Below, one piece after another: positions 5,972 to 58,392 of a stretch of DNA of 64,000 bases (position 1 is its first letter; the number at the start of each line of letters is the position of its first letter). The DNA comes from Pararoseomonas baculiformis (GTDB taxonomy: Bacteria > Pseudomonadota > Alphaproteobacteria > Acetobacterales > Acetobacteraceae). The position numbers and the translations under genes were made by a program. Under the pieces are notes generated by a model, which was not told the DNA's origin, did not search any database, and saw nothing but the letters and a program-made list of their open reading frames with translations. Location of the stretch: NCBI RefSeq assembly GCF_017813395.1, contig NZ_JAGIZB010000001.1, forward strand, positions 1-64,000, given 5' to 3'.

Positions 5972-6205
5972 TGCTGATACACTACAATCTGCCTCACCGA
6001 CCGTGCCACGAGTGCCTCTTCTCATCCAGTTCACGGACGAGTTGCCTCATCAGGCGCGGGAAGTAGGACCAGGATAAGCTCTAACAGGGCCAGTACAGAT
6101 TATGGCGACGGTGCTGGCCTTCTCCCTCATGAAGCAGCGTCCAAGGACCTCTTCTCTGGGAAATCTCTTGGGGGCGTCGGGAAACACGCGGCGTCCGGCT
6201 ACATC

Positions 6206-9816: not shown

Positions 9817-9893
9817 TGGCGGACCCGATACGATTCGAACGTACGACCTTTGCCTTCGGAGGGCAACGCTCTATCCAGCTGAGCTACGGGTCC
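9817..9893 (-). tRNA. trnR: tRNA-Arg (anticodon CCG)
   Basis: On the minus strand the sequence folds into a 77-nt cloverleaf. The acceptor stem is GGACCCG/CGGGTCC with discriminator G and an encoded CCA (9817-9819). The D-arm has AGCTCAGCTGGATAGAGC. The anticodon stem TTGCC/GGCAA encloses the loop CTCCGAA, giving anticodon CCG (reads CGG). The T-arm contains GTTCGAATC. Its 3' end faces the accessory region, so it could have served as an attachment site. Confidence 0.95.
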
Positions 9894-34751: not shown

Positions 34752-34837
34752 CGTCATTCCCCCTGCGGCGCCCCGCATGGACGGGCGCGCCACCTGGCCG
34801 CAGGATGCCGCGCATTCATCCAGGGGGGGAGAGGCAC

Positions 34838-35845: not shown

Positions 35846-36019
35846 TTTATCTGCCACCACCTCCTGCGAATCAGGAGCAGATGGAGTACTCGCCCCCTCG
35901 TTCCAGGGCTCTTTAGCCTCAGACCGCCCTGCCGGTTGAAATGAAGACCGGCAAAGACGGTGGCATCTCCCTTCGCAGTTGCGGTAAACACGGTCTTATC
36001 ATTTGTAAAGGAGATGCGG
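35846..36019 (+). promoter_or_regulatory. AT-richer leader upstream of the capsule locus
   Basis: This 174-bp gap looks AT-richer than its surroundings and lies just before the first glycosyltransferase of the capsule block. It holds a small hairpin (CTCCTG at 35861-35866 with CAGGAG at 35872-35877) and ends in AAAGGAG (36007-36013), the ribosome site of the next gene. A promoter is likely here, but -35/-10 boxes cannot be fixed with confidence, and no ops/JUMPstart element is seen. Confidence 0.35.
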
Positions 36020-37369
36020 GTGCCGCGTGGCGAGGAGATCACACTCTATGATACCCGCGCCTCGGCTCCCGCCCCGGCGCCGCATGTGGTGTTGGACGTC
36101 TCCCGCCTCCTGGCCTGCGGGACGAAGGCGGCCCCCTCGGGGATCGACCGGGTCGAGATCGCCTATGCCCGGCGCTGGGCCACCATGCCGGAAGCCGGCT
36201 GCACTTTCGTGGCCCAGGCCCTGGCCGGGGACTATGTGGCCCTGCCCTGGCGCGCCGTGGTCGGGCTGATCGCCAATCTCACCAAGGCCTGGTCCCACAA
36301 TGACCCCGACTTCCACGCCGCCCGGCGCGCGCGCCGCATCTCGGTCGCGCTGCGCTGGCGCGTCATGGCCGGGATCGGCAAGGGCACCCTCGCACGCCGC
36401 CTGAAGACCACCGATCCCAAGGTCTTCCTCCTCGTCTCCCACCGCGCCCTGGAGCGCGAGCGGCCGATCCAGGCCATGCGGGACGCGGGCTGCGCCTTCG
36501 TGCCCCTCATCCACGACCTGATCCCCGCGACCCATCCGGAATATGCCCGCCCCGGCCAGGCGGACCGGCACATGAAGCGCATCAGCACCACCGCGGCGCT
36601 GGCGGATGCCATCATCGTCAACTCGGCCCACACCGCCGCGGCACTGCGCCCGCATCTCGGCACGCGCGAGATCCCGCCGCACGTGACCGTGGCGCCGCTC
36701 GGGATCGAGCCACCCCCGGCGGCCAGCCCCACCCTGCCGGCGGAACCCTATTTCGTCATCCTCGGCACGATCGAGCCGCGGAAGAACCACCTCCTCCTGC
36801 TTCATCTCTGGCGCGACCTGGCGGGCCGGATGGGCCGCCGCACCCCGCATCTCCTTGTCGTCGGCCGCCGCGGCTGGGAGAACGAGAACGTGGTGGACAT
36901 CCTCGAGCGCTGCGAGGCGCTGCGGGGCACGGTGCGGGAGATGGGCCAGGTGCCGGACCGGGAGGTCTGGCAGATCCTGCGCGGCGCCCGCGCCCTGCTC
37001 TTCCCCTCCTTCGCCGAGGGATACGGCCTTCCACTGGCCGAGGCCCTGGCGCTCGGCGTCCCGGCCATCTGCTCCGACCTGCCCGCCCTGCGCGAGGTGG
37101 GCGGCCACGTGCCGGATTATCTCGACCCGCTGGATGGCATCGCCTGGCGCGCCGCCATCCTCGACTATGCCGATCCCGCCAGCCCGGCGCGCAACGCGCA
37201 GCTCGCGCGCCTGTCCGGCTGGCGCGCCCCGCGCTGGGACAGCCATTTCGCCCGGGTGGACAACCTGCTGGCCACGCTGGCCCGGCGCCGCAGCCCCGCC
37301 ACCCTGCAGGCCGCCCTCCCGGGCTGGCTGCGCTCCCGGCCGGTCGGGCCGGGCGGTGCCCCTACCTGA
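36020..37369 (+). CDS. Glycosyltransferase family 4 protein (capsule locus)
   Basis: This GT-B glycosyltransferase has 449 residues from the GTG at 36020, which has AAAGGAG six bases upstream; a GTG at 35960 would add 20 residues. The acceptor half contains VVLDVSRLL, PSGIDRVE and LIHDLIPATHPEY. The donor half has GTIEPRKNHLLLL, PHLLVVGRRGWEN and the GT4 E-x7-E region FPSFAEGYGLPLAEALALG. It transfers a sugar from a nucleotide-sugar donor at the cytosolic face of the membrane. The 'PSGIDRV' N-terminal type is common in bacterial O-antigen and capsule clusters. It lies 12 bp upstream of the PKS gene and is probably in the same transcript. Confidence 0.88.
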   Translation: MPRGEEITLYDTRASAPAPAPHVVLDVSRLLACGTKAAPSGIDRVEIAYARRWATMPEAGCTFVAQALAGDYVALPWRAVVGLIANLTKAWSHNDPDFHAARRARRISVALRWRVMAGIGKGTLARRLKTTDPKVFLLVSHRALERERPIQAMRDAGCAFVPLIHDLIPATHPEYARPGQADRHMKRISTTAALADAIIVNSAHTAAALRPHLGTREIPPHVTVAPLGIEPPPAASPTLPAEPYFVILGTIEPRKNHLLLLHLWRDLAGRMGRRTPHLLVVGRRGWENENVVDILERCEALRGTVREMGQVPDREVWQILRGARALLFPSFAEGYGLPLAEALALGVPAICSDLPALREVGGHVPDYLDPLDGIAWRAAILDYADPASPARNAQLARLSGWRAPRWDSHFARVDNLLATLARRRSPATLQAALPGWLRSRPVGPGGAPT

Positions 37370-37381
37370 CTTCCACCAAAA

Positions 37382-40300
37382 GTGGGATCCGCCGTGACAC
37401 GCTCCGCCCCTGCCCGTCGCCAGGGCGCCCGTCCGTATGCCCGCGCGGGCCATGCGCCAGGCGAGCCCATCGCCATTGTCGGCGCCGCCTGCCGCTTCCC
37501 CGGTGCCCCGGATCTGGACGCCTTCTGGTCGCTGATGGCCGAGGGGCGGGACGCGGTCTCCACCCTTCCGGCTGACCGCTTCAACCAGGACTGGTTCTAC
37601 CATCCCCGCCGTGGGGAGCCTGGCCGCGCCTACAGCTTCGCAGCGGGCCATCTGGGTGACGTGACGGGCTTCGATGCCCCCCATTTCGGCCTCTCCCCGC
37701 GCGAGGCGGCGGAGGCGGACCCGCAGCAGCGCCTGCTGCTGGAAATCACCTGGGAAGCGCTGGAGGATGCGGGCTGGCCCGCTTCCTCCGTCGCCGGGCG
37801 GGAAATCGGCGTCTTCGTCGGCGGCTCCTCCACCGACTATGCCGAACTGCGCCTCTCCGACCCGGCCGGCGCCGACCGCTACTTCATGACCGGCAACACC
37901 CTTTCCATCCTGGGGAACCGGATCACCAATGTCTTCGACCTGCGCGGTGGCGCGCAGACGATCGACACCGCCTGCTCCTCCTCCCTCGTCGCCCTCTCCC
38001 TCGCGGTGGATTCCCTCCGGGCCGGGCGCGTGGAGGCGGCGCTGGTGGGCGGCGTGCAGCTCCTGCTCTCGCCCTATGCCTTCGCGGGCTTCTCCCGGGC
38101 ATCCATGCTCTCCCCCACCGGGCGCTGCCATGTCTTCTCCGCCCGGGCGGATGGCTATGTGCGCGGCGAAGGAGCGGGCGTGGTCATCCTCAAGCCGCTC
38201 TCGGCGGCGTTGGCGGATGGCGATGCGATCCGCGGTGTCATCCTCGCGGCGGGCGTCAATGCCGTGGGCCGCTCCATCGGCCTCTCCCTGCCCGATCCCC
38301 AGGCCCAGGCGGCGCTGATCCGCCGCGTGCTGGCCGAATCCGGCCTGGCCGCGGACCGGGTGAGCTATTTCGAGGCCCATGGCACCGGCACCCAGGCGGG
38401 CGATCCGGTGGAAGCCCAGGCCATCGGCCAGTCCCTGGCCGTGCCGGACGCCACCGGCCGCACCGCCCCGCTGCCCGTCGGCTCGGTGAAGTCCAATATC
38501 GGCCATCTCGAGACCGCCTCGGGCATCGCCGGCTTCATCAAGGCCCTGCTGATGCTGGAGAAGCGGGTGATCCCGCCAAACCTGCACTTCGACGACCCCA
38601 ATCCCCGGATCGACTTCGAAGGGCTGAACATCCGCGTCCCCACCGCGCCGGAGCCCCTGCCGGGCAAGGTCCCGGTGGTCGGGGTGAACTCCTTCGGCTT
38701 CGGCGGCACCAACGCCTCCGTCCTGCTGGAAGCCGCCCCTGCCCTCCGTCGCTCCAGGGTGGCGCCGGAAGCGCCGGCCCCGATGCCGCCGCTCATCCTT
38801 TCCACCCGCACCGCCGAAGCGCTGCCCCGAGCCGCCGCCTCCTGGGCGGCCAGGCTGCGAGCGGAACCGGCCCGTGCCCCCGCCCTGCTGCGCGGCCTGG
38901 CCCGCCACCGGGACCTCGCCCCGCACCGCCTCGTCCTGCGCGGCGACGATGCGGAAAGCCTGGCCGAGGCGCTGGACGCCTTCGCGGCCGGCGAAGCCGC
39001 CGGGGTGCAGGGCACCGCCATCGCGGCCGCGCGCGGCGTGGCCGGCCCGGTCTTCGCCTTCTCGGGCAATGGCGCGCAGTTTCCCGGCATGGCCCGCGAG
39101 GCCATGGCCCATTCCCGCAGCTTCCGCGAGGCGGTGGAAGCCGCGGATGCCGCGCTGGCCCCGCGCCTGGGCTGGTCGGTGGCCGCCGCCATCGCCGATG
39201 GGCTGACCGCCGAGGCCCTGGCCGCCACCGAGGTGGCGCAGCCCACCCTCTTCGCCGTGCAGCACGGCCTTGTCGCCGCCCTGGCGGATGAGGGGATCGC
39301 GCCCGGCCTGGTCCTCGGCCATTCCGTCGGCGAGGTTGCCGCCGCCCTCGCGGCCGGCATCCTGGACCTGCCCGGCGCCGCCCAGCTCATCGTCGCCCGC
39401 TCCACCGCCCAGGCCCGCACGCGCGGCAAGGGCCGCATGGCCGCCCTCAGCGCCACCGAGGACGAGGCGGCGCCGCTTCTCGCGGAATGCGGCCCAGGGC
39501 TCGAGATTGCCGCGCGCAACGCGCCCCGGGCCCTCACCATCGCGGGTCCGGCGGAATCCATCTTCCGCCTGGTCTCCGCGGCGAAGCGCGAGCGGCTGAC
39601 CATCATCCCGCTCGACCTCGACTACGCCTTCCACTCCGCCGCCATGGACGAGGTGGAGGGCGTGCTGCGCGAATCCCTGCGCGGCCTGGCCCCCGCCGCG
39701 CCCCGCATCCCGTTCCTCTCCACGGTCACCGGCGCCCTGCTCGATGCGCCGGCGGATGCGGAATACTGGTGGCGGAACCTCCGCGCCCCCGTGCGCTTCG
39801 CCGATGCGGCCGCCGAAGCCGGGCGGCTCGGCGCGCGCCCGGTGATCGAGATCGGGCCCAACCCGATCCTGCAATCCTATCTGCGCGAGATCCTTCGCGC
39901 GGCGAAGGCCGAGGCGCCGATCCTGGCCAGCCTCTCCAAGCGCGATGCCCCGGGCAACCCGATCCCGCTGATCGCGGACCGCGCCACGGCCATGGGTGCC
40001 GATCCGCGCCGCGCGCCCGCCTTCTCCGGCCCCGCTGCGCGGCGAGGCCTTCCCGCCACCCCCTATCACCGCACCCGCCACTGGTTCGCGGGCACGCATG
40101 AGGCCATGCACCTGCATGACCCGGCGCTGGACCACCCGCTGCTGGGCTTCCGCCGCGGCGCTGGCGCGGCGGAGGATGGCTTCGCCGAATGGACGCGGAA
40201 CCTCGATTCCGCGCTGATGCCCTGGCTGGCCGATCACCGCCTGGGCGAGGAGGCCGTGCTTCCCGCCGCAGGCATGGCCGAGATGGCGCTGGCCGCCGCC

Positions 40301-43300
40301 GCCCGCCGCTATCCCGAGGCCGAGACGCTGGAGCTCTCCGCTTTCCAGATCCTCCGCCCCCTGCCCATCCCGCAGGGCGGCCCGGGCGCCGAAGGCGGCA
40401 GCCAGCAGATCCGCTTCCGACTGGCCGATGACGGCACCTTCCGCCTGGAATCCCGCCGGCGCATGGGCGGGGAGGGCTGGTCCCTCCATGCCCGCGGCCT
40501 GCTCCGCCCGGCCACGGAGGATGCCCTGCCATCGCTCCCTCCCGCCCCGGAGGAGGCGCGCCGCGTGGAGGAGCCCGGCCTGCACGCCGTGGCGGCCCGC
40601 TGCGGGCTGGAATACGGCCCGGCCTTCCGCCCCGTGCGCCATGTGGACATCGCCCCGTCGGGCCGCACGGGCGAGGTCGCGCTCGGCCTTCCGGCGGAGG
40701 CGCCGGCCGACGATGCCTTCCTCCTGCACCCCGTGCGGCTGGACGGGGCCATGCAGGGCCTGATCGGTCTCCTGGCCGACCGTCCGGCCGCGCCGGGCGA
40801 GCCGCGCCTGGGCGAAACCCCGGGCGAGGCGCTGGTGCCGGTGCGCTTCGAGCGCCTGGTGGTCCGCCGCGACGCCAGCCCGGCCGAGCGCGCCGCCCTC
40901 GCCCTCACCCATGCCGGCGAGCGCGCCGCCGAGGCACGGATGGTCCTGGCCGATGCCGCCGGCCAGACCATTGCCGTGGCCGAGGGCGTGTGGTTCCAGC
41001 GCGCCCGCCTCGGACGCTCAGAGGCCGTCGAAGCTGTCGCCTTCCGGCTGGAGGACCTGCCGGCGATCGACCCCGCCCTTCCCTGCCCCGACCGGACCCG
41101 CGCCCTCGACCTCGCGCTCCTCGCCGCCGGGGCCCGCGACGAATCGCTGGATCTGTCGGAACCGGCCCTGCTGCTGGAGGGCTTTGCCGCCTCCGCCACC
41201 ATCCGCGCCTTCGCCACATCGGCCGCGTCCCATCCGGGCCAGCCTATCCTGCCCACCACCCCCTATGCCGCCGCCCTGTTGCGGACCCTGGAGGAGGACG
41301 GGCTCGCGACGCGGGAAGGAGCGGGCTGGCGCCTCCTGCCGGAGGCGGACCTGCCGGCTCCGGAGGATATCTGGCGCTCCGTCCTCATCGAGCGCCCGGC
41401 CCTCGCCCAGGACCTCTCCCTTCTCGCCCTCGCGGCCGAGCGCCTGCCGGACGCACTTTCGGGCCATCTTCCCCCGGAAAGCGCGAGGCTCCGCGTCTCC
41501 GAGGAAGCGGCGGCCTATGACCGGCTGGCCCAGGTCGTCGCCGATGCCGCCAGCACCATCGCGGCGGCCTGGCCCTCGGACCGGCCCCTGCGCGTCCTCG
41601 ATCTCGGCGGCTCGGCGGTCACGCGCCATCTCTCCGCCGGGCTGGCCCGTTCCGGCCACCGGGTGATGCACATGCTGGCCGGGGCCGCCCGGCCCGCACC
41701 CAGCCCGCAGCCGGGAGTGGAGGTGACCACGCTTGACTGGGATCCGGCGGGCAGCGCCCCGCCGCCCGTGACGGCCGATCTGGTGGTCGGGGTGAACACG
41801 GCCGTGCGCGCGCGCATCGGCACCGCCATCCTGCCCAGCCTCGCCGAGGCCCTGGCCGAGGGCGGCACGCTCCTCCTGGCGGAACCGCTTCCCGGCCGGC
41901 TGGTGGATTTCCTGCGCGGACAGGATCCCGAGAGCTGGGCGATGCCGGCCCTGCCCGGCACCACCGCCTGGCGCGATGCGCTGCAGGAGGGCGGCTGGTC
42001 CGCGGCCCGGACCGAGGCGCTGCGCGCCTCGCCCTGGCCCGCCCTGCTGGTCGCGGCCCAGCGTCCCGCACCGGTTCCGGCCATGCCCAAGGCCAGGCCC
42101 GGCAGCCGCTTCATCCTCCTGGCCGATACCGGCGCGGCGCCGCTGGGGGAGGCCCTTGCCACCGCGCTGGAGCGCGCGGGCGCCGCCGTCGAATCCCACC
42201 GGCTGGAGGATGCCTCTGCTCTTCCGCCCCGCGCCCTGCGGGATGCGGCGGTGCTGGCCCTGGCCAATCCGGCGGGCCAGGCCCTCTCCACCACCCTGGC
42301 CGGCATCACGCAGCTGGCCAGCACGGCGTCCGGCAGCTGCGCGGGCCTTGCCCTCATCGCCCAGGGTGGGCCGGAAACCCCCACCGCCGAGGCGGTGCGT
42401 GCCCTGGGCAGGGTGCTGGCCAATGAGATGCCGGACCTGTCCCCGCGCCGCATCCTGATCGATGCCGCCCTGGCCCCTGCCGCCGCCGCGCGCCGCCTGC
42501 TGGCGGAGCTTCTGGCGCCCGGCGATGAACCGGAGATCGTGCTCGGCCTCTCGGCCCGCCGCGTGCCGCGCCTGGCCCAGGGCTACCCGCCCCGCGCCGC
42601 CACGGCGTCCCGGCTGGTGGTGCGCCAGCCCGGCGCCCTCGCCAGCCTCGGCTGGGAGCCGATGGGCCCCCTGCCCCAGCCCGGCCCGGGCGAGGTGCGG
42701 ATTCGCGTGGAGGCCGCCGGGCTGAACTTCCGCGACCTGATGTGGGCCCAGGGCCTGCTTCCCGAGGAAACGCTGAAGGACGGCTTCGCGGGCGCGGGGC
42801 TGGGCATGGAATGCGCGGGCATCGTGGAGGCCGCCGGCCCCGGCACGCCCTTCCACCCGGGCACGCGGGTCTTCGGCTTCGCGCCGCGCGCCCTGGCCAG
42901 CCGGGCGCTGACCCGTGCCCAGGCCCTGGCCACGATCCCCGAGGGCCTGACCTTCACGGCGGCCGCCACCATCCCCGTGGCCTTCCTCACCGCCGTCTAT
43001 GCGCTGGAAACCTGCGCGCGCATCGCCCCGGGCGAGCGGGTGCTGGTGCATGGCGGCGCGGGCGCCGTCGGCCTGGCCGCCCTGCAGGTGGCCCAGGCCG
43101 CCGGGGCCGAGGTGGCGATGACCGCCGGCACCGCCGCCAAGCGGGCCTTCCTGCGCGCCGCCGGGGCCGACATCGTGCTGGACAGCCGCGCCTCCGGCTT
43201 CGACGACGCGCTGCGCCAGCACTGGCCGGACGGGGTGGATGTCGTGCTGAACTCCCTCGCCGGGGACGCGATGGAGCGCTCCATCGCCCTGCTCAGGCCC

Positions 43301-44899
43301 TTCGGCCGCTTCGTGGAGCTGGGAAAGCGCGACTATGCGGAGGACCGGCGCATCGCCGTGCGCCCCTTCCGCCGGAACATCACCTATTTCGGCGTCGATG
43401 TGGACCAGCTGCCCAAGGCCCGCCCGGCCGAGGCCGCGCGGCTGCTTGAATCCATCCGCGGCCGCCTCGCTTCCGGCGACCTGCGCCCCCTTCCCTACGC
43501 CCGCCGCGCGGCGGAGGATGCGGAAGGTGCCTTCCGCCTGCTCCAGGCCAGCGGCCATATCGGGAAGATCGTGGTCCTGCCGCCGCGCGGGGATGCCGCA
43601 CCGGCGCCCGCCTGGTCCCTGGAGGCCTCGGCCAAGGGCACCATCCTCGTCACCGGCGGGACTTCCGGCTTCGGCCTGGAATGCGCCAAGTGGCTGGCGG
43701 CGAACGGCGCCACCCGCCTCGCCCTGCTCTCCCGCCGCGGCCCGGCCACGCCGGGCGTGGGAGAGGCGCTCACCGCCCTCGCCGCCCTGGGCGCGCGCGC
43801 CAGCGCCCATGCGGTGGATGCCTCCAACGCCGCCGCGCTGGGCACCGTGCTCGCCGCGCTGCGGGAGGAGGGGCCGATCACAGGCCTGGTCCATGCGGCC
43901 ACGGTCTTCGATGACGGCGCCGCCAGCGCCATGGATGCGGCGCGCTTCGCCCGCCTCCTCGCGCCCAAGCTAGAAGCGGCGCAGAACCTGGATCACCTGA
44001 CGGCCGGGGACCCGCTGGAGCTGTTCCTGATGTTCTCCTCGGCCACCACGCCGCTCGGCAATCCCGGCCAGGCCAACTATGTCGCGGCCAATGCGGCGAT
44101 CGAGGCGCTGGCACGCCGCCGCCGCGCGCGGGGCCGCCCGGCCCTGGCCGTGGGCTGGGGCCCCATCGCCGATGCCGGCATCCTGGCGCGGGAGGCCGAC
44201 ACGGCGCGCACCCTCGCCCGCCGCCTGGGCGTGGAGCCAATGACGGCGCGGGAATCCCTGGAAGGCCTGCCGGAACTGATCGGCTCCGGCCTGCCGGTCG
44301 TCTCCCTGGCGCGGGTCGCCTGGAAGCGCGCCGGGGCCGCCCTGGCCGTGCTGCGGGAACCCGCCTTCGCCGCCCTGCGCGGCCGGGCCGAGGAAACGGC
44401 GTCCGACATCGCCGATATGCGCGCGCATCTCCTCTCCTTGCCGCCCGCCGAGGCCCAGGCCCTGCTGGCCCGGATCGGGGCGGAGGAACTGGGCCGCATC
44501 CTGCGGCTGCCGCCCGAGAGCATCGCCCCCGATGCGCCGGTCGCACGCCTCGGGCTGGACAGCCTGGGCGGGCTGGAGCTGCGGGGCGCGCTGGAGGCAA
44601 GGCTCGGCATGTCCGTGCCCCTTTCCGCCGTGACGGAGGACCTCACCATCGCCGGATTGGCCGCGCGGATGGTGGAGGGTCTTTCAGGCGGGGCACGGGA
44701 AGCCCAACTGGATACGCTGATCGAGCACTTCGAGCCCGGCTCGACCACGGCGGCCGGCCTCCTGCCGCCGCCGGAGCCGACCCCGGCGGATGCGGCCACC
44801 CTGCCCGAGACGATGGGCGCGGCCCCGCCCGCCGGGAAGCCCGCCATGGCCGGCCCGGAGCCCGTACCGATGACGCGCCCCGGCGCGATGGAGACCTGA
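37382..44899 (+). CDS. rkpA: Highly reducing type I polyketide synthase (RkpA-like), no thioesterase
   Basis: This is a single-module megasynthase of 2505 residues. KS ~27-450: Cys198 in DTACSSS, His333 in EAHGTGT, His375 in SNIGHLE. AT ~555-850: Ser648 in GHSVGE, with YAFH near 751. DH ~915-1190: His952 in ADHRLGEEAVLP, Asp1121 in LDGAMQ. A Rossmann/methyltransferase-like segment ~1400-1530 (LRVLDLGGSAVT) looks degenerate. ER ~1745-2075: HGGAGAVGLAAL. KR ~2085-2270: TGGTSGFG, Tyr2233. ACP ~2345-2425: Ser2394 in GLDSLGG. There is no thioesterase, and the last ~80 residues are Pro/Ala-rich. Used iteratively it would build a saturated acyl chain on ACP. The order and context match rhizobial K-antigen RkpA. 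The GTG start at 37382 or 37394 is uncertain. Confidence 0.92.
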   Translation: MGSAVTRSAPARRQGARPYARAGHAPGEPIAIVGAACRFPGAPDLDAFWSLMAEGRDAVSTLPADRFNQDWFYHPRRGEPGRAYSFAAGHLGDVTGFDAPHFGLSPREAAEADPQQRLLLEITWEALEDAGWPASSVAGREIGVFVGGSSTDYAELRLSDPAGADRYFMTGNTLSILGNRITNVFDLRGGAQTIDTACSSSLVALSLAVDSLRAGRVEAALVGGVQLLLSPYAFAGFSRASMLSPTGRCHVFSARADGYVRGEGAGVVILKPLSAALADGDAIRGVILAAGVNAVGRSIGLSLPDPQAQAALIRRVLAESGLAADRVSYFEAHGTGTQAGDPVEAQAIGQSLAVPDATGRTAPLPVGSVKSNIGHLETASGIAGFIKALLMLEKRVIPPNLHFDDPNPRIDFEGLNIRVPTAPEPLPGKVPVVGVNSFGFGGTNASVLLEAAPALRRSRVAPEAPAPMPPLILSTRTAEALPRAAASWAARLRAEPARAPALLRGLARHRDLAPHRLVLRGDDAESLAEALDAFAAGEAAGVQGTAIAAARGVAGPVFAFSGNGAQFPGMAREAMAHSRSFREAVEAADAALAPRLGWSVAAAIADGLTAEALAATEVAQPTLFAVQHGLVAALADEGIAPGLVLGHSVGEVAAALAAGILDLPGAAQLIVARSTAQARTRGKGRMAALSATEDEAAPLLAECGPGLEIAARNAPRALTIAGPAESIFRLVSAAKRERLTIIPLDLDYAFHSAAMDEVEGVLRESLRGLAPAAPRIPFLSTVTGALLDAPADAEYWWRNLRAPVRFADAAAEAGRLGARPVIEIGPNPILQSYLREILRAAKAEAPILASLSKRDAPGNPIPLIADRATAMGADPRRAPAFSGPAARRGLPATPYHRTRHWFAGTHEAMHLHDPALDHPLLGFRRGAGAAEDGFAEWTRNLDSALMPWLADHRLGEEAVLPAAGMAEMALAAAARRYPEAETLELSAFQILRPLPIPQGGPGAEGGSQQIRFRLADDGTFRLESRRRMGGEGWSLHARGLLRPATEDALPSLPPAPEEARRVEEPGLHAVAARCGLEYGPAFRPVRHVDIAPSGRTGEVALGLPAEAPADDAFLLHPVRLDGAMQGLIGLLADRPAAPGEPRLGETPGEALVPVRFERLVVRRDASPAERAALALTHAGERAAEARMVLADAAGQTIAVAEGVWFQRARLGRSEAVEAVAFRLEDLPAIDPALPCPDRTRALDLALLAAGARDESLDLSEPALLLEGFAASATIRAFATSAASHPGQPILPTTPYAAALLRTLEEDGLATREGAGWRLLPEADLPAPEDIWRSVLIERPALAQDLSLLALAAERLPDALSGHLPPESARLRVSEEAAAYDRLAQVVADAASTIAAAWPSDRPLRVLDLGGSAVTRHLSAGLARSGHRVMHMLAGAARPAPSPQPGVEVTTLDWDPAGSAPPPVTADLVVGVNTAVRARIGTAILPSLAEALAEGGTLLLAEPLPGRLVDFLRGQDPESWAMPALPGTTAWRDALQEGGWSAARTEALRASPWPALLVAAQRPAPVPAMPKARPGSRFILLADTGAAPLGEALATALERAGAAVESHRLEDASALPPRALRDAAVLALANPAGQALSTTLAGITQLASTASGSCAGLALIAQGGPETPTAEAVRALGRVLANEMPDLSPRRILIDAALAPAAAARRLLAELLAPGDEPEIVLGLSARRVPRLAQGYPPRAATASRLVVRQPGALASLGWEPMGPLPQPGPGEVRIRVEAAGLNFRDLMWAQGLLPEETLKDGFAGAGLGMECAGIVEAAGPGTPFHPGTRVFGFAPRALASRALTRAQALATIPEGLTFTAAATIPVAFLTAVYALETCARIAPGERVLVHGGAGAVGLAALQVAQAAGAEVAMTAGTAAKRAFLRAAGADIVLDSRASGFDDALRQHWPDGVDVVLNSLAGDAMERSIALLRPFGRFVELGKRDYAEDRRIAVRPFRRNITYFGVDVDQLPKARPAEAARLLESIRGRLASGDLRPLPYARRAAEDAEGAFRLLQASGHIGKIVVLPPRGDAAPAPAWSLEASAKGTILVTGGTSGFGLECAKWLAANGATRLALLSRRGPATPGVGEALTALAALGARASAHAVDASNAAALGTVLAALREEGPITGLVHAATVFDDGAASAMDAARFARLLAPKLEAAQNLDHLTAGDPLELFLMFSSATTPLGNPGQANYVAANAAIEALARRRRARGRPALAVGWGPIADAGILAREADTARTLARRLGVEPMTARESLEGLPELIGSGLPVVSLARVAWKRAGAALAVLREPAFAALRGRAEETASDIADMRAHLLSLPPAEAQALLARIGAEELGRILRLPPESIAPDAPVARLGLDSLGGLELRGALEARLGMSVPLSAVTEDLTIAGLAARMVEGLSGGAREAQLDTLIEHFEPGSTTAAGLLPPPEPTPADAATLPETMGAAPPAGKPAMAGPEPVPMTRPGAMET

Positions 44900-44901
44900 G
44901 C

Positions 44902-46221
44902 GTGAACCAAGGCCTCGGCCTGTCTGCGACGGCACGCCTCGCCCTCCTGCAACGCCTCTCCAAGCGCCGCGCGCGGCAGGAGGAGAGCGGCGGGAGCGAG
45001 GGCGGCCGTTCCTTCGCCGATCTCCCGGCGGTGCGCGACTTCGAGCTGATGAAGACGGCCATGGAGGCGCTCGACCTTCCGAACCCCTTCTTCCGGCCGC
45101 ATCAGGGCGTGGCCGCCGCCACCACGGTGATCGGGAACGAAGAGTTCCTGAACTTCTCCTCCTACAACTATCTCGGGCTGAACGGAGACCCGCGCGTGAA
45201 GGCGGCGGCCCATGCCGCCATCGAACGCCACGGCATCTCCGCCTCCGCCTCCCGCATCGTCTCGGGCGAGCGGCCGCTGCATGCGGAGCTGGAGGCGGGC
45301 ATCGCGGCGCATTACGGCACCGAAGGCGCCCTCTGCTTCGTCTCCGGCCACGCCACGAACGTGACCGTCATCGGCCACATCATGGGCCCGCGCGACGTGA
45401 TCGTGCACGACGCGATGATCCACAATTCCTGCGTGGAGGGCGCCCGCCTCTCCGGCGCGCGGCGCCTGCCCTTCGCGCATAACGACCCCCAGGCCGCCGA
45501 GCGCGAGCTGGCCGCCGCCCGCCGCGGCGCGGGCCGCGCCCTGCTGGTGATCGAGGGGCACTACTCCATGGATGGCGATGTCCCCGACCTCGCCCGCTTC
45601 ATTGAGATCGCCCGCCGGCACGATGCCTGGCTGATGGTGGACGAGGCGCATTCCATGGGAGTGCTCGGCCAGACCGGCCACGGCATCGCGGAGCTGCAGG
45701 GGGTGGACCCGTCCGGGGTGGATATCTGGATGGGCACCCTTTCCAAGAGCCTCTCCTCCTGCGGCGGCTATGTCGCGGCCAGGCGCCAGCTGATCGACTG
45801 GCTCCGCCACACCGCGCCGGGCTTCGTCTATTCCGTGGGCCTCGCCCCGGTCCTGGCGGCTTCCGCCATCGAGTCCCTGCGGATCCTGGGGGAGGAGCCC
45901 TGGCGGGTGGAGCGGCTGAACGCCAACGCCACCCGCTTCCGCGACGGGCTGCGCGCACGCGGCCTGGATGCCGGCGCCTCGGGCGGCCATGCCATCGTGC
46001 CGCTGATGACCGGCTCCTCCGTCCGGGCCGGACGGCTTTCGGCGGAGCTGTTCAAGCGTGGTGTGAACGTGCAGCCCATCACCTTCCCCGCGGTGCCCGA
46101 GCGCGCGGCGCGGCTGCGCTTCTTTCTCTCGGCCGAGCACACGCCGGAGCAGATCGACCGGGCCCTGGACATCGTGGCCGAGACGGCGGCCGGGGTGGCC
46201 CCGTCGGAGCTGGCGAGCTGA
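44902..46221 (+). CDS. rkpG: Alpha-oxoamine synthase (RkpG-like; KBL/SPT/AONS family)
   Basis: This 439-residue fold-type I PLP enzyme has NFSSYNYLGLNGDPRVKAAA, ERHGISASASRIVSGERPLH, the substrate-binding DEAHSMGVLGQTG and the PLP Lys282 in GTLSKSLSSCGGY. The family decarboxylatively condenses an amino acid with an acyl thioester, as serine palmitoyltransferase or 8-amino-7-oxononanoate synthase do. A ~45-residue charged N-terminal extension precedes the core. The GTG start is 2 bp after the PKS stop, so the natural acyl donor is probably the PKS-bound chain. The product would be a long-chain alpha-aminoketone. The amino acid used is unknown. Confidence 0.9.
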   Translation: MNQGLGLSATARLALLQRLSKRRARQEESGGSEGGRSFADLPAVRDFELMKTAMEALDLPNPFFRPHQGVAAATTVIGNEEFLNFSSYNYLGLNGDPRVKAAAHAAIERHGISASASRIVSGERPLHAELEAGIAAHYGTEGALCFVSGHATNVTVIGHIMGPRDVIVHDAMIHNSCVEGARLSGARRLPFAHNDPQAAERELAAARRGAGRALLVIEGHYSMDGDVPDLARFIEIARRHDAWLMVDEAHSMGVLGQTGHGIAELQGVDPSGVDIWMGTLSKSLSSCGGYVAARRQLIDWLRHTAPGFVYSVGLAPVLAASAIESLRILGEEPWRVERLNANATRFRDGLRARGLDAGASGGHAIVPLMTGSSVRAGRLSAELFKRGVNVQPITFPAVPERAARLRFFLSAEHTPEQIDRALDIVAETAAGVAPSELAS

Positions 46222-47045
46222 CGGAGGCATCGGCGCGGCGCGCACCACGCCTCGCCCTCCTGACCCTGCCCAGCGCGGCGAGTTCGGAGGCTGTCGCCGC
46301 CTTCGCCGCCGCGCACCGGGACAGGCTGGCCCTGGTCGGGCTTTCCAACCCCTATCGCCGCAGCGCCGGCGGCTCACTGGGCCAGAGCTGGCGACACCTC
46401 CGCCGCTCCGGCCCCCGCATGCTCGGCTATCTCGCGGTCAACATGGCGCTGCCGCAGCTTCTCTCCAGGCTTTCGCCACGCCCGGGCCCGCTGCTGCGGT
46501 TGTGCCGGGATCATCAAATTCCCGCGATGGTGGTGGAGGATGTGAACGGCCCTGCCTTCCACAGGAGCCTGCGCGAGGCTGGGGCGGAACTGGTCGTCAC
46601 GTTCCATTTCGACCAGATCCTCACCGCCGCCACCCTGGCCATCCCGGCCCGTGGCGGCATCAACATCCACCCCTCAATGCTGCCCCGGCACCGGGGCCCG
46701 ATCCCCGGCTTCTGGGCGGCGATGGAGGCGGAACCCGCCCATGGCGTGACCATCCACCGCCTCGTCCCGCGCATTGATGCGGGTGCGATCCTGGCCCAGC
46801 AGGCCGTGGATTTGCCGCCCGGCACCAGCGCTTCCACCGCCGCACGCCTGCTCCACCAGGCCGCGCTTCCCCTGGCCGCCCGGGTGATCGAGGGCCTGTC
46901 GCAGGGGGAGGCGGAGGAACGCCAGGTGGAGCCCCTGCCCTATTGCCCCTTTCCGGACCGTGCGGCCCTGCGGGAAGGCCGCCGGCGCGGGGTGCGCCTG
47001 GTCGCCGCGGGTGATATCCCGGCCGCGCTGAGGGCCCGTCCCTGA
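46218..47045 (+). CDS. Formyltransferase-family protein with non-canonical start
   Basis: About 275 residues are encoded if translation begins at the CTG at 46218, which overlaps the stop of the oxoamine synthase (CTGA). From 46218 to the first ATG at 46419 the frame is open and looks coding (RLALLTLPSAAS, then LALVGLSNPYRR, the expected first strand of the fold), but no ATG, GTG or TTG occurs. The core has the formyltransferase catalytic set: NIHPSMLPRHRGPIP (Asn, His) and RIDAGAILAQQ (Asp), so it should move formyl from 10-formyl-tetrahydrofolate to an amine. The acceptor could be the aminoketone lipid or an amino sugar; the sequence does not decide. Confidence 0.8.
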   Translation: MTEASARRAPRLALLTLPSAASSEAVAAFAAAHRDRLALVGLSNPYRRSAGGSLGQSWRHLRRSGPRMLGYLAVNMALPQLLSRLSPRPGPLLRLCRDHQIPAMVVEDVNGPAFHRSLREAGAELVVTFHFDQILTAATLAIPARGGINIHPSMLPRHRGPIPGFWAAMEAEPAHGVTIHRLVPRIDAGAILAQQAVDLPPGTSASTAARLLHQAALPLAARVIEGLSQGEAEERQVEPLPYCPFPDRAALREGRRRGVRLVAAGDIPAALRARP

Positions 47046-47096
47046 GGCCGGAAGGCGTTTCGGAGCCGCGCCAGGCAACGCCGTGCCAGTGCCGGG

Positions 47097-48404
47097 ATGG
47101 GATTGTCCTCCCCCGGCGCCGCGCATATGGATCGGGACGTGCCAGCGGAACCCGAAAACGCCCCGCGCCCGAGGCGATTCCTGTTCCTGCAGGGACCCAT
47201 CACCCCGTTCTTCCATGAGGTGGGGGCCCGCCTTCGGGCCCTTGGCCATGCCGTGCACCGGATCAACCTGTGCCTGGGCGACAAGCTCTTCTGGCGCGGC
47301 CCGGGCGCCGTGGACTTCACCGCCCGGAAGGAGGACTGGCCCGCCTTCATCGAGCGCTTCCTCGACACTCACGGGATCACCGACATCATCCTGCTGGGCG
47401 AGCAGCGCTATTACCACCGCGTGGCCATCGCCGCCGCCAGGGAGCGTGGCATCGCCGTGGTGGCCACCGATTTCGGCTATCTGCGCCCGGACTGGATCAC
47501 CTTCGAGTTCAACGGGCTCGGCCGCGACAGCCTCTTTCCCCGTGATCCGCAGGCCATCCTCGCCCTGGCGGAAACCCTGCCCCCGCCCGACCTGGCCGTC
47601 CGCCACCGCGACAGCTTCTTCAACCAGGCCGTGCTGGACGTCTCCTACCATCTGCTCTCGCTGCTACCGGGCTTCTTCCGGCACTATGACAGCCACCAGA
47701 TCTACCATCCGTTCCAGGTCTATGCCGGCACGCTCTACCGCATCGTCACGCGGCGCCGCGCGAACAGGCGGGCGGATGGCATCATCGCGCAGCTGAAGAA
47801 GCAGGGCGGCCCGCTCTTCCTCATGGCCATGCAGATGGAGACTGACTTCTCCGTCCGCGCCTATTCGAACTACGCGGACCTCGACACCGCGATCGAGGAG
47901 GTCACCCGCTCCTTCGCGGCTCATGCGCCGGCGGATGCACAGCTGCTCTTCAAGGTCCATCCGCTGGACCCGGCGGTGAAGAACTGGCACCGGCGCGTTA
48001 CCCGCATCGCGCAGCGGGCCGGGGTAGCGAACCGCGTCCACTATCTCGGCGGCGGCAATCTCGGCGACATCACCGAGAGCGTGCAGGGCGTGATCACCAT
48101 CAACAGCACGGTCGGGCTGCGCGCCATCGTGGACCGGCTGCCCACTTTCGCCATGGGCGAGGCCCTCTACAAAATCCCCGGCCTGGCCCATGAGGGCCCG
48201 CTCGACAGCTTCTGGAGCGAGGGCCGCCCTCCCAACCCGGAGCTGCGCGAGGCCTTCCTGCGCGGCATCGTCCACTGCCTGCATATCCGCGGCGTCTACT
48301 ATGCCCGCCCCGGCCTGGACGTGGCGGTGGAGGCGGCGGCGCACCGCCTGCACCATGGGCTGGTCAACCAGCCCGTGATCGAGCCACCGCCGCCCCTGCT
48401 CTAG
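47097..48404 (+). CDS. kpsS: KpsS-like capsule polysaccharide beta-Kdo transferase
   Basis: This 435-residue cytosolic protein matches KpsS/LipB of ABC-dependent capsule systems: RRFLFLQGPITPFFHEVGAR at the start, INLCLGDKLFW, DIILLGEQRYYHR, TDFGYLRPDWITFE in the middle, FKVHPLDPAVKNW and a closing GVITINSTVGLRAI block. In E. coli and Neisseria, KpsS adds the first Kdo to lyso-phosphatidylglycerol, starting the poly-Kdo linker that anchors the capsule. Here the acceptor may be a different lipid. Starts at 47097 and 47127 are both possible and neither has a good ribosome site. Confidence 0.88.
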   Translation: MGLSSPGAAHMDRDVPAEPENAPRPRRFLFLQGPITPFFHEVGARLRALGHAVHRINLCLGDKLFWRGPGAVDFTARKEDWPAFIERFLDTHGITDIILLGEQRYYHRVAIAAARERGIAVVATDFGYLRPDWITFEFNGLGRDSLFPRDPQAILALAETLPPPDLAVRHRDSFFNQAVLDVSYHLLSLLPGFFRHYDSHQIYHPFQVYAGTLYRIVTRRRANRRADGIIAQLKKQGGPLFLMAMQMETDFSVRAYSNYADLDTAIEEVTRSFAAHAPADAQLLFKVHPLDPAVKNWHRRVTRIAQRAGVANRVHYLGGGNLGDITESVQGVITINSTVGLRAIVDRLPTFAMGEALYKIPGLAHEGPLDSFWSEGRPPNPELREAFLRGIVHCLHIRGVYYARPGLDVAVEAAAHRLHHGLVNQPVIEPPPPLL

Positions 48405-48427
48405 TCCCTCTTCCGGGCGGCCCGGGG

Positions 48428-49201
48428 TCAGTGCTCCGCGTCTATCCGGAAGCGCAGCAGCCGCACGGCGCGATCCGCCAGCGGTGCCGGCAGGAAGGAC
48501 AGCGCCCGCAAGCCCAGGACCAGTGGAAGGGGAAAGCTGCAGCCCGGCCGCCCGGCCCGCAGGGCGCGCTCGATCCGCGCCGCGGCCTGGTCCGTGGAAA
48601 GGGAGAAGGGGCGCGATCCCCGCCAGGCCTGCCCCATGGCGCTCTCGAAGAACCCTGGCGCGATGAGCGTGACACCGGCCCCCGTTCCCACCAGATCGGC
48701 CCGGATCGCCTGCCCCCAGGCCCAGAGCCCGGATTTGGAGGCGCAGTAGCCCGGGCTGTCCGGCAGCCCCCGGAAGGCGGCCACCGAGGCCACCAGCCCG
48801 ATCCGCCCGGCGCGCCGCTCCCGGATCGCCGGCAGCAGCGGCCCCACCAGGTTCACGGCGCCGAGCAGGTTCACCGAAACCTGCGCGGTCACCTCCGCCA
48901 CGCCCTCCCGCCGCCCGTCCGAACGGCGCCCGGCGGCGATGCCGGCATTGGCGATCACCAGCACGGTCGGCGCCCCCGCATCCCAGGCCAGCACGGTGCG
49001 CTCCACCGCCGCAGCATCGCGGATGTCCAGGGCGGCGATCCTAACGGTGGCGCCCCGCGCCTCGCAGGCCGCGGCCGTCTCGCGCAGCCCGGCCTCGCTG
49101 CGCGCGGTCAGGCCCAGGGTCACGCCCGGCGCGGCGAAACGCTGCGCCAGCGCCGCCCCCAGCCCGCGCGAGGCGCCGGAGATGATCACCCCGCCCTTCA
49201 C
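48428..49201 (-). CDS. rkpH: SDR-family ketoreductase (RkpH-like), coupled to kpsC
   Basis: This 257-residue classical SDR has the cofactor motif ISGASRGLG, VLVIANAG, the active-site Ser in VASVAAF and YCASK. The C-terminal ~60 residues end in hydrophobic patches (PLPLVLGLRALSFLPAPLAD), as in membrane-associated 3-ketosphinganine reductases. Its GTG start overlaps the kpsC stop by 4 bp (GTGA), so it is translated with kpsC. A plausible substrate is the ketone of the aminoketone made by the PKS and oxoamine synthase, giving an amino-alcohol lipid. Rhizobial K-antigen clusters also contain an SDR (RkpH). The role is inferred. Confidence 0.8.
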   Translation of the reverse strand: MKGGVIISGASRGLGAALAQRFAAPGVTLGLTARSEAGLRETAAACEARGATVRIAALDIRDAAAVERTVLAWDAGAPTVLVIANAGIAAGRRSDGRREGVAEVTAQVSVNLLGAVNLVGPLLPAIRERRAGRIGLVASVAAFRGLPDSPGYCASKSGLWAWGQAIRADLVGTGAGVTLIAPGFFESAMGQAWRGSRPFSLSTDQAAARIERALRAGRPGCSFPLPLVLGLRALSFLPAPLADRAVRLLRFRIDAEH

Positions 49202-51000
49202 CGACGCCCCCCGATCCGCGCCAGCGTGCTGCGGATGAAGCCCTCGATCCCCCGGTGGATGGTCAGGGGGGAGATGCGCCAGGCCGCCGGGTCGTCCAGC
49301 CGTTCCATCATCACCTCCGGCGGGCAGGGCAGAAGGGTCACGGGATCGATGTAGCGGGGATAGAGGATGAGCGCGGCGGCCACGAGCTCGTCCAGGCTGC
49401 GGGCCACGCTCCGCCGGCCCGGCGGCAGCGGCGCGCGGTCATCGGTCAGCCCCCAGCCGGCATAGAAGGGCTGGCCCCAGCAGGTGACGGGCTTGTCCCG
49501 CAGCAGCGCCTCGAAGCCCGAGAGCGAGGTGAGGGTATGCATCGCGTCGATCTTCGGAAGCAGCGCCGGCAGCGGAACGCCGCCCACCACCGCATCCGCC
49601 AGCCCCTCCAGCTCCGCGGCGCGCAGCCGGCCCTTCCGGTACCCCGCCTCCAGGTCCGGATGCGGCTTGTAGAGGATGAAGGCATCCGGCTCCGCCGCCC
49701 GGGCCGCCTTCAGCAGATCGAGGTTGGAGCGAAGGCCGCCCCCGCCCAGCCGCACGGAGGCATCGTCCTCCACCTGCCCCGGCACCAGCACCACGCGCCG
49801 CCCCGCCGGGATCTCGGGCAGGCTGCCCCGGGCGGCGAGGTTGTACTTGGAGACGCCGCGGCGGACGATGTGTTCCCGAAGCGCCGCCGCACGGGCCAGC
49901 AGCCCCGCATCGAAGCGCTCCTCCGCCAGGATGACCTCCAGGTCGGAGGGCTGACGCGGGTCGTAATAGGCGCCACGGCCATCCAGGCTGTAGGAGGCGC
50001 CGGGCAGGAACCGCGCCCCGAGCCCGCGCGAGCGAACGAAGCCATCCTCCAGCAGGCGCAGCTCCACCCCCTGGCGCCGAATCGCCCCAGCCAGATCATC
50101 GGGGCAGGAGGCTGCCCAGGCCAGGACCGCCCCGCCCTCGGCCCGCGCCCTCTCGATCGCCCGGGGGATGTTTGCGGCGAAGGCCGGGGCGCCGCCCTCA
50201 TGCGCCAGCAGCGCGGCCACCTGGCGGCGCTTCCAGCGGGCGATCCCTATGCAGGCCGATATCCCCCGGTTCGCGCGCTCCGCCGCCACCCAATCCGCCA
50301 GCAGGGCGAAGCCCTCCGCGCGGCTCCATGGTCGGCGCCGGAAGGGATCGGCGGCACGGATGCGGGAGAGGAGGGGTGCCAGATGCTCCCCTGGCCGGTC
50401 ATGCGCCACCCCCGCCGCCTCGGCCAGGGCCGCCATGAAGGGCCGGGCGCCATGCAGCATCCCGGCACCCTCCAGCAGGGTCCAGGGCGAGAGCGGCTGG
50501 GGAAGGGCGCGGATACCAGGCGGGGCGGCAAGCACAGGCGGCGCTGCCCGCTCCGCGAAAGGATCGCGCGCCAGGACCACCGGGCGCCCGGAGGCACGGG
50601 CCGAAGCGAGGGCGGCCTCGCCCTCCATGCGCCGCGCGGGATCGCAGGGGTCGAACACGACCGCCCGGCCCTCCGGCAGGGCCAGGGCCCCTGCCCCGGG
50701 ATCGGGCAGCCCCGGCGCGCCACCCAGCCGCGCATGGGCAATCAGGGAGGCCAGCCCGGCCGCCTCGCCCGGCTCCAGCGCAACCGGCTGCCCGGTTAGG
50801 ATCAAGGGGGGGGCATCACGGCCGGCGAAGCGCGGCGGCGCGAAGGGATCCAGTGAAAAGGCCGGAATCCTTTCCGCACCACCGGCCGCGAACAGGCCCG
50901 GATCCTCCGGCCAGAAAGCCGGAAGATGCGGCCAGCGGGCGAGCAGGCGGGCGGCGTGCGTATCGCGTGACAGGTCGGCGTGGTTTCCCTGGGCCGTCAT
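49198..51000 (-). CDS. kpsC: KpsC-like capsule beta-Kdo transferase with short N-terminal module
   Basis: This is a 600-residue cytosolic protein. The C-terminal ~320 residues match the second KpsC module closely: LLEDGFVRSRGLGARFLPGA, GAYYDPRQPSDLEVIL, VSKYNLA, VLVPGQVEDDASV, YKPHPDLEAGYRKG, MHTLTSLSGFEALL and CWGQPFYAGWGLTDD. The first ~270 residues keep a loose Rossmann-like layout but lack the SKYNL, KxHP and TSxxGFEAL motifs that the first module of E. coli KpsC has. One of its two Kdo-transfer activities may therefore be lost. The start at 51000 (MTAQGNHADLS) follows no clear ribosome site. It is divergent from the lipoprotein gene with a 41-bp shared leader and overlaps the SDR downstream. 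Confidence 0.88.
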   Translation of the reverse strand: MTAQGNHADLSRDTHAARLLARWPHLPAFWPEDPGLFAAGGAERIPAFSLDPFAPPRFAGRDAPPLILTGQPVALEPGEAAGLASLIAHARLGGAPGLPDPGAGALALPEGRAVVFDPCDPARRMEGEAALASARASGRPVVLARDPFAERAAPPVLAAPPGIRALPQPLSPWTLLEGAGMLHGARPFMAALAEAAGVAHDRPGEHLAPLLSRIRAADPFRRRPWSRAEGFALLADWVAAERANRGISACIGIARWKRRQVAALLAHEGGAPAFAANIPRAIERARAEGGAVLAWAASCPDDLAGAIRRQGVELRLLEDGFVRSRGLGARFLPGASYSLDGRGAYYDPRQPSDLEVILAEERFDAGLLARAAALREHIVRRGVSKYNLAARGSLPEIPAGRRVVLVPGQVEDDASVRLGGGGLRSNLDLLKAARAAEPDAFILYKPHPDLEAGYRKGRLRAAELEGLADAVVGGVPLPALLPKIDAMHTLTSLSGFEALLRDKPVTCWGQPFYAGWGLTDDRAPLPPGRRSVARSLDELVAAALILYPRYIDPVTLLPCPPEVMMERLDDPAAWRISPLTIHRGIEGFIRSTLARIGGRR

Positions 51001-51041
51001 GAGGTTTTGCTTGGTGCGGCGCGGTAGGATAAACTGGCGCC

Positions 51042-51545
51042 ATGAAGCAAGCCATGCCCCTGGGGCCGACCAGGGCCCGGATGGGGGCCCGGACGGCGGA
51101 ACCGGCCCATGCCTGTCGCCGCGCCGCGCCCCGCCATGCCGCGTTGCTGGCCGCCCTTCTCGCTCTTCCGGCGCTGGCCGGATGCGCGAAGGGCGCGGCC
51201 GAGCAGAGCTGGTGGAACCCGATCGGCCTCGGCCCCGCCCCCACCTCGCCGCCACCCGCGACGAATGTGGTCCTGCCCGTCCGCGCCGCGGATCCGGTGG
51301 CCGCCTTCGCCGCGCGCGCCCAGGCCGGCCAGGTCGAGACGGTCTCGCTGCCCGGTGGCGGCCGCACCGTCACCGCCCGCATGGTCCGCGCCTATAACGC
51401 CGCCTCCGGCCGCGAGTGCCGTGAGGTACAGTTCGGCGCCGCCGTCCCGGGCGGCGCGCCGGGCGCGACCTATTGCAACGACCCCGCCCAGGGCTGGGTC
51501 GCGGCGCGGTCCCTGCTGCGCGGCGGGGCGGTCTACCGGCCGTGA
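51042..51545 (+). CDS. Small lipoprotein preceding the capsule exporter
   Basis: This 167-residue predicted lipoprotein has a long N terminus followed by the hydrophobic stretch HAALLAALLALPALAGC, with lipobox LAGC. After a Pro-rich linker comes a ~70-residue domain (VETVSLPGGGRTVTARMVRA, SGRECREV, YCNDPAQGW) resembling the small beta-rich Cys-containing domains of 17-kDa surface-antigen-type lipoproteins. The actual start may be a later ATG (51054 or 51081). The end overlaps the kpsM start (GTGA), which ties it to capsule export. It may be an accessory outer-membrane component, though this is not established. Confidence 0.7.
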   Translation: MKQAMPLGPTRARMGARTAEPAHACRRAAPRHAALLAALLALPALAGCAKGAAEQSWWNPIGLGPAPTSPPPATNVVLPVRAADPVAAFAARAQAGQVETVSLPGGGRTVTARMVRAYNAASGRECREVQFGAAVPGGAPGATYCNDPAQGWVAARSLLRGGAVYRP

Positions 51546-52369: not shown

Positions 52370-52391
52370 TCCCGGCGATGAGTTTCCTGTA

Positions 52392-58280: not shown

Positions 58281-58392
58281 CGCCAGCCCCCATCCTGTTG
58301 CGGGCGGACCATGCCGCGCCCGCACCGCCCTGACCAGCGTGTGACCCCTGCCCGGCTTCGGCTCCGCCCGAGGATCGTCTAGGGTGGCGCCG

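Follow-up and report, generated by a model that had tools for sequence, protein, structure and literature searches.

The stretch of DNA considered here, hereafter the window, consists of 64,000 nucleotides from Pararoseomonas baculiformis (contig NZ_JAGIZB010000001.1, positions 1 to 64,000), and open reading frames (ORFs) and Pfam matches delimit in it a capsule locus of the ABC-transporter-dependent type that spans positions 35960-59802, in a genome of 5.25 Mb. From 35960 onwards, this locus carries a glycosyltransferase gene followed by genes encoding a polyketide synthase (PKS), an alpha-oxoamine synthase (AONS), a formyltransferase (FMT) and KpsS on the forward strand, a short-chain dehydrogenase/reductase (SDR) and KpsC on the reverse strand, then KpsM, KpsT, KpsE-like and KpsD-like proteins and two further glycosyltransferases. 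An earlier note on this DNA had proposed that the PKS, AONS, FMT and SDR genes form a dedicated pathway for an aminolipid, on which the 3-deoxy-D-manno-oct-2-ulosonic acid (Kdo) linker and the capsule would be built instead of on phosphatidylglycerol (PG). The genes at the heart of this proposal are:

37382..44899, forward strand: single-module type I PKS of 2505 aa, RkpA/WcbR-like (Pfam, motifs)
44902..46221, forward strand: AONS, RkpG-like (Pfam, alignment)
46218..47045, forward strand: FMT, probable CTG start (Pfam Formyl_trans_N, PF00551; motif; AlphaFold model)
47097..48404, forward strand: KpsS, first beta-Kdo transferase (Pfam PF05159)
48428..49201, reverse strand: SDR reductase, candidate 3-keto reductase (Pfam)
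49198..51255, reverse strand: KpsC, beta-Kdo transferase (Pfam PF05159)

The PKS displays the Pfam domain order ketosynthase (KS), acyltransferase (AT), dehydratase (DH), enoylreductase (ER), ketoreductase (KR) and acyl carrier protein (ACP), ends with its ACP and matches no thioesterase family in the Pfam scan, so that release of its chain by a thioesterase was set aside. As the earlier note had read, the AONS gene follows at once, starting at 44902, 2 bp past the PKS stop (44899). Motif patterns were matched in the KS (DTACSSS and HGTGT), the AT (GHSVGE), the KR (YVAAN) and the ACP (LGLDSL), and simple patterns for the DH, the ER and the nucleotide loop of the KR gave no match; an alignment with four relatives indicates that the catalytic residues are retained. 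The protein is 35% identical to the PKS of a Sinorhizobium meliloti locus (L047) that was taken as rkp-type from its gene order. The sponge swf-type PKS was set aside as nearest kin, as a passage of PMC3908369 separates SwfA from WcbR/RkpA.

The AONS has, as relatives in the PDB, 2-amino-3-ketobutyrate CoA ligase (KBL), serine palmitoyltransferase (SPT), AONS and 5-aminolevulinate synthase (ALAS) structures, and scores under the cut-off of every NCBIfam model that it matches. The sole other AONS-type match of the genome is a 5-aminolevulinate synthase (HemA) that scores above its own cut-off; a housekeeping role of the capsule-linked enzyme as BioF, KBL or HemA was rejected because it lies under all their cut-offs and a separate HemA exists. 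The AONS of the S. meliloti locus, which lies on pSymB, is 47% identical to that of the window. The AONS likely releases the ACP-bound chain of the PKS through condensation with an amino acid.

The reading frame of the FMT runs across the AONS stop, and its first in-frame ATG, GTG or TTG is found at 46419. The conserved protein begins upstream of this position, a start at which would drop 66 residues of the model and the first two strands. In the window and in eight stretches from the genus (L023-L030), the frame has a CTG included in the sequence CTGA, the TGA of which is the AONS stop; the corresponding position reads CTG ATG in L022 and, outside the genus, ATG in L057, L059 and L063 and GTG in L056. 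To judge from these sequences, the FMT most likely starts at a coupled CTG at 46218, kept across the genus. A gene caller restricted to the common start codons would place the start 201 bp late in the window. The earlier description of an overlapping FMT followed by KpsS is borne out for the overlap with the AONS stop; FMT (which ends at 47045) and KpsS (which starts at 47097) are adjacent, 51 bp apart, and do not overlap. The Asn-His-Asp triad (N148, H150 and D186) is invariant in 20 of 20 aligned sequences, and the AlphaFold model, computed from 19 sequences, has a mean pLDDT of 95.1 and a pTM of 0.92. The protein scores under all NCBIfam cut-offs; it forms a subfamily of its own and is genetically tied to the AONS.

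The slot that follows the AONS gene is occupied in different ways among relatives. Of the 15 genomes from the genus, counting that of the window, 10 encode the FMT, each time directly after the AONS. In four other genomes of the genus (G002, G003, G011 and G013) and in one from the same family (G018), this slot holds an N-acyltransferase of roughly 390 residues, for which Pfam gives a weak GNAT match (G002) or none (G018). This enzyme is a full-length homologue of YghO from the sphingolipid cluster of Escherichia coli BL21 (all ten examples match it in phmmer, with E values between 2.5e-80 and 3.3e-40, and a profile of the ten gives 359 bits), and YghO itself might, according to a passage of PMC9386255, be an N-acyltransferase converting sphinganine to dihydroceramide. 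FMT and slot N-acyltransferase occur together in none of the 40 relatives searched, and a YghO/aca-type N-acyltransferase gave no match in the own genome at E 1e-8. On the AONS tree, the alternation requires 6 changes over 31 labelled rows, 5 over the 26 rows in which the gene lies directly after the AONS, and 4 over the 21 Roseomonas-type rows (14 with FMT, 7 with N-acyltransferase), which implies repeated exchange; this is a quick tree with long branches flagged, made of 109 rows (108 AONS and the E. coli SPT as outgroup, L054 and L055 being left out as duplicates). In five of the labelled rows (L037, L042, L050, L083 and L130), the stretch has the gene at a place other than directly after the AONS on the same strand. 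The interchange of two unrelated families of amine-acting enzymes beside an amine-making AONS, which is the central argument here, is best explained if both modify the amino group of what the PKS and the AONS make, a long-chain, sphingoid-like base.

The nearest solved relatives of the FMT in the PDB are ArnA-type sugar formyltransferases and tRNA formyltransferases, and capsule loci frequently include sugar-modifying genes. The PKS, AONS and SDR could thus make a lipid anchor while the FMT formylates a capsule amino sugar rather than the lipid amine; the FMT of L042, L130 (Methylobacterium) and L083 (Pseudovibrio) indeed lies in the kps region, not after the AONS on the same strand. This is nevertheless unlikely, since the start of the FMT gene and the stop of the AONS gene overlap, a YghO-family enzyme occupies the same slot in relatives and, among the 80 best AONS loci (out of at least 525 confirmed relatives in a species-level genome collection, with genes labelled by profiles built here from seeds), FMT directly follows the AONS in 10 of the 12 that bear one, Thiothrix- and Marinobacterium-type bacteria included. 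No amino-sugar aminotransferase figures among the Pfam matches obtained for the genes scanned between 34.8 and 59.8 kb.

Other occupants of the surroundings of the AONS were also observed. In L037 (4822-12377) and L050 (9768-21007), SDR, AONS and YghO-like N-acyltransferase genes accompany KpsC, KpsS and a gene resembling lipoteichoic acid (LTA) synthase, and no PKS was seen on either stretch. Seven Burkholderiaceae loci (L043, L045, L087, L097, L103, L115 and L122) have an LpxC-like deacetylase gene between PKS and AONS, and six of the seven have a small GNAT gene after the AONS. The gene after the AONS encodes a protein of the DAHP-synthase I family in Bordetella pseudohinzii (L107, 11354-12199), possibly a Kdo-8-phosphate synthase serving the linker, and a NusG-family, perhaps RfaH-like, protein in a Halomonas-type Vreelandella (L117, 11186-11704).

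A separate, more distant YghO homologue is present in eight genomes of the genus (G002, G003, G005, G007, G008, G011, G012 and G014), with stops in its reading frame in G003 and G014; the own genome, G001, G004, G006, G009, G010 and G013 gave no such match. In seven of the eight, another AONS-type gene lies at a distance of about 8-11 kb, and the pair looks like an ordinary ceramide locus. The existence of such separate loci in the genus indicates that the capsule-embedded set is not simply the general sphingolipid pathway of the cell.

The association of this set with KpsC and KpsS was examined at several scales. Among 20 fetched relative stretches, PKS is found in 15 (L022-L036) and the whole order PKS-AONS-FMT-KpsS in nine (L022-L030); owing to this recurrence, the arrangement is not due to chance. 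Within the genus, a capsule-type AONS (at least 73% identity) is encoded by 14 of the 15 genomes and KpsC/S by the same 14, the remaining one (G008) being devoid of both. When 150 genomes were drawn evenly from the phylum (thresholds: E 1e-120 for AONS, E 1e-20 for KpsC/S), AONS was found in 10, KpsC/S in 20 and both in 8, a coincidence with a Fisher p of 9.2e-7 with the own genome and 5.5e-6 without it. As for the 80 best AONS loci, two of which (L054 and L055) come from G014 and G010 and so repeat genomes of the genus sample, a PKS is located near the AONS on the same strand in 76. On the stretch itself, 27 have KpsC or KpsS, a further 10 have other kps export genes but neither of these two, and 43 have no kps gene; KpsC/S are encoded elsewhere in the genome for 6 of the 10 and 39 of the 43, which brings the loci accompanied by KpsC/S to 72 of the 80. 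The genome survey that the earlier note had called for therefore does not find PKS-AONS pairs mostly without kps genes. Clustering of the AONS set with kps genes recurs in alpha-, beta- and gammaproteobacteria.

Two loci depart from the usual arrangement in their gene content. In Rhodovarius lipocyclicus (L056), AONS, FMT and KpsS genes are found with no PKS within 10 kb upstream, and in L036 (genome G019), a PKS-AONS-SDR trio has no kps gene on its stretch, KpsC/S being on another contig.

The same surveys contain cases that suggest a different outcome, namely that a free amino-lipid or signal would come out of this set as a secondary metabolite co-inherited with capsule genes, the capsule itself being built on ordinary PG. 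Relatives of the AONS without kps genes nearby include a PKS fusion in Planktothrix and, in Streptomyces, a fusion to an unidentified partner. KpsC/S were undetected, at E 1e-3 or 1e-20, in the genomes of 8 of the 80 best loci (L067, L074, L086, L090, L102, L110, L112 and L128), all metagenome assemblies except L102 and two of them from Planctomycetes. In the even draw, 12 of the 20 genomes with KpsC/S are devoid of such an AONS and 2 of the 10 with AONS (G094 and G122) are devoid of KpsC/S. Passages of PMC10148158 and PMC7694667 moreover describe the KpsS of E. coli as using (lyso-)PG. Such an outcome is nonetheless quite improbable, given the joint presence of KpsC/S and AONS in 14 genomes of the genus and their joint absence from the fifteenth, the recurrent clustering with kps genes in three proteobacterial classes, and a passage of PMC4881576 in which rkp-1 products are described as contributing to a lipid carrier for secretion.

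The reading that we prefer, with a probability of roughly 0.57, is that the capsule-embedded set builds an amino-lipid, the amine of which is capped by a formyl or an acyl group, and that KpsS and KpsC build the Kdo linker on that lipid. The PKS would build on its own ACP an acyl chain that is largely saturated, because the enzyme has three reducing domains. In a decarboxylative condensation, the AONS would join this chain to an amino acid (serine being the simplest candidate) and so release it as a 3-keto long-chain base, the ketone of which the SDR would reduce. The amine would then receive a formyl group in the species of the window and nine other members of the genus, which all have the FMT gene, and a fatty acyl group in the four members that carry the YghO-family N-acyltransferase in the slot. 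As suggested by position and co-occurrence, KpsS and KpsC would place the beta-Kdo linker on the lipid or on an added head group, and the KpsM, KpsT, KpsE and KpsD proteins would export the finished chain. Globally, the idea of a dedicated aminolipid pathway tied to KpsC and KpsS has good support from co-occurrence and from the alternation of FMT and YghO-family genes, and the interpretation given in the earlier note is partly supported as a whole: N-formylation, the use of this lipid as the carrier of Kdo and its substitution for PG are steps that we infer.

Several points weigh against this capped amino-lipid. Besides the sugar and tRNA formyltransferases nearest to the FMT and the genomes that have AONS or KpsC/S alone, the DH motif of the PKS deviates from that of the four aligned relatives, with Glu instead of Gly. 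The AONS reaches 295.8, 291.1 and 222.3 bits with three NCBIfam SPT models that have cut-offs of 640, 500 and 670, and the SPT of E. coli BL21 passes one of them (599.2 versus a cut-off of 500); since the AONS lies far under all three, its amino acid donor could be glycine or alanine. Four of the eight genomes with the distant YghO homologue are of the FMT type, and amines may be acylated there too. The reading frames of SDR and KpsC, both on the reverse strand, share 4 bp, as expected from the coupling announced in the earlier note; this pairing is less general in relatives. Of 16 stretches examined, 11 have KpsC together with KpsS; the SDR adjoins KpsC in just 4 of these and is missing from the other 7, so that it is often absent from the locus. 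To these must be added that the LTA-synthase-like gene (E 1e-10) has no match in the 15 genomes of the genus.

This gene, which encodes a sulfatase-fold membrane protein, is present in 24 of the 80 best AONS loci, 15 of which have an SDR gene on the stretch, and in the S. meliloti locus it lies after the SDR gene and before KpsS, at what we take to be the place of RkpI. It suggests an extension of the amino-lipid reading rather than an alternative: the enzyme would move phosphoglycerol from PG to the base, whereby KpsS would meet a head group as in E. coli, and the lineage of the window would have lost or replaced this step. A published title reportedly refers to a 'phospholipid anchor' for the poly-Kdo capsule of S. 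meliloti, wording that fits a phospho-sphingoid anchor as well as an ordinary glycerophospholipid. For B. pseudomallei, a passage of PMC4275268 lists a 'sulfatase' transmembrane protein between WcbR and an SDR. The gene was, on the other side, not found in the genus of the window; a copy hidden elsewhere in the own genome was rejected after PF00884 and LTA-synthase profile searches, the three PF00884 matches found not fitting the latter profile. Other activities of sulfatase-fold membrane proteins are phosphoethanolamine transfer and hydrolysis. This extension is accordingly entertained as a possibility with the odds somewhat against it. A broader formulation, namely that some ABC-dependent capsules have an anchor class distinct from PG that consists of a polyketide-derived sphingoid-type lipid, N-formylated or N-acylated depending on the lineage and provided in many lineages, not in Roseomonas, with a phosphoglycerol head by the LTA-synthase-like enzyme, is tentative, a little short of an even chance.

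If the amino-lipid reading is true, a second class of anchor, made by PKS and AONS, would explain the role of RkpA and WcbR, and their reported part in K-antigen export would become chemically testable. It would also link bacterial sphingolipid chemistry to the capsules of symbionts and pathogens. The alternation of formyl- and acyltransferases predicts that close relatives differ in having an N-formyl or an N-acyl group on the same base.

The remaining genes of the locus are those expected around such a set:

35960..37369, forward strand: glycosyltransferase (Glycos_transf_1), upstream of the PKS (Pfam)
51473..52369, forward strand: KpsM, ABC-2 permease (Pfam)
52392..53042, forward strand: KpsT, ATPase (Pfam)
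52933..54198, forward strand: KpsE-like protein, named by position
54182..55978, forward strand: KpsD-like outer-membrane export protein (Poly_export, SLBB; Pfam)
56073..58424, reverse strand: glycosyltransferase with tetratricopeptide repeats (Pfam)
58384..59802, forward strand: glycosyltransferase (Pfam)

The Pfam matches thus include the gene complement of a group 2 ABC-dependent capsule, i.e. KpsC, KpsS, KpsM, KpsT and export partners, and the KpsM/T/E/D genes at 51473-55978 confirm that the PKS set lies in a capsule locus of the ABC type. KpsS also matches NCBIfam NF050054, under the cut-off of that model. The KpsE-like gene (no match in the Pfam scan) adjoins KpsT in relatives too; the start of its ORF is mechanical and the true one is probably further downstream. 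Upstream of the first glycosyltransferase, a D-2-hydroxyacid dehydrogenase gene (34805-35845) is also found in L022, L024, L029, L030 and L035. Farther away, the window encodes a matrixin-type protease (26660-28780) in which a Calx-beta domain and FG-GAP-like repeats were recognised, and its GC content, about 70% overall, falls to 0.54 at 4001-6000, fairly near a tRNA-Arg gene (9817-9893); this low-GC stretch is possibly an inserted element.

With regard to known systems, the locus shares the traits of the rhizobial rkp-1 and Burkholderia wcb loci, that is a single-module reducing PKS beside a pyridoxal phosphate-dependent AONS, with linked SDR and KpsS/KpsC genes. The rkp-1 region has the same PKS-AONS pair and an SDR with a KpsS homologue, in line with the similarity to rhizobial genes mentioned in the earlier note and with the identities found with L047. 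We take RkpA to be the PKS, RkpG the AONS and RkpH the SDR, with RkpI and RkpJ as further members. The S. meliloti locus differs in that it has an LTA-synthase-like gene and neither FMT nor YghO-like gene on its stretch, whereas the window has the FMT and no LTA-synthase-like gene. According to a passage of PMC4881576 (citing Kiss 1997), rkp-1 products help to synthesise and modify a lipid carrier that serves secretion, and a dedicated capsule anchor is therefore not a new idea.

The Burkholderia wcb block (BPSL2786-2792; relatives L043 and L045) gathers, according to a passage of PMC4275268, KpsS, an SDR, the PKS WcbR and an AONS, like the window. It differs by an LpxC-like deacetylase gene between PKS and AONS, an acetyltransferase gene after the AONS, a sulfatase-type membrane protein and the lack of an FMT. 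The bacterial ceramide pathway (spt, acpR, aasR, epi and aca; a passage of PMC9386255) also relies on an AONS-family enzyme, and the sister loci of the window share with it the YghO/aca-family N-acyltransferase; in the window, however, the chain would come from a PKS instead of AcpR and an acyl-ACP synthetase, FMT replaces the N-acyltransferase and the genes belong to a kps locus. ArnA-type N-formyltransferases are kin to the FMT over profile residues 87-235 and by the Asn-His-Asp triad, but lack its tie to an AONS. The group 2 capsule system of E. coli has KpsC, KpsS, KpsM, KpsT and export partners in common with the window and is not known to have a PKS-AONS set. Its anchor is (lyso)phosphatidylglycerol according to passages of PMC10148158 and PMC7694667, the former of which describes the Kdo-glycosylated lipid end as a conserved feature of nearly every ABC-dependent capsule.

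In the open-licence literature searched, the alternation of FMT and N-acyltransferase, the link to the YghO family and the FMT after the AONS in Thiothrix- and Marinobacterium-type loci were not found. The rkp-1 lipid carrier and the wcb gene content were already known, and the co-occurrence of AONS and KpsC/S over 15 genomes and the FMT/N-acyltransferase alternation are new here. As no LTA-synthase-like membrane protein, of the sulfatase fold and expected at the place of RkpI/WcbQ, was found in the genome, the locus is classified as a variant of the rkp-1/wcb type rather than as a plain member.

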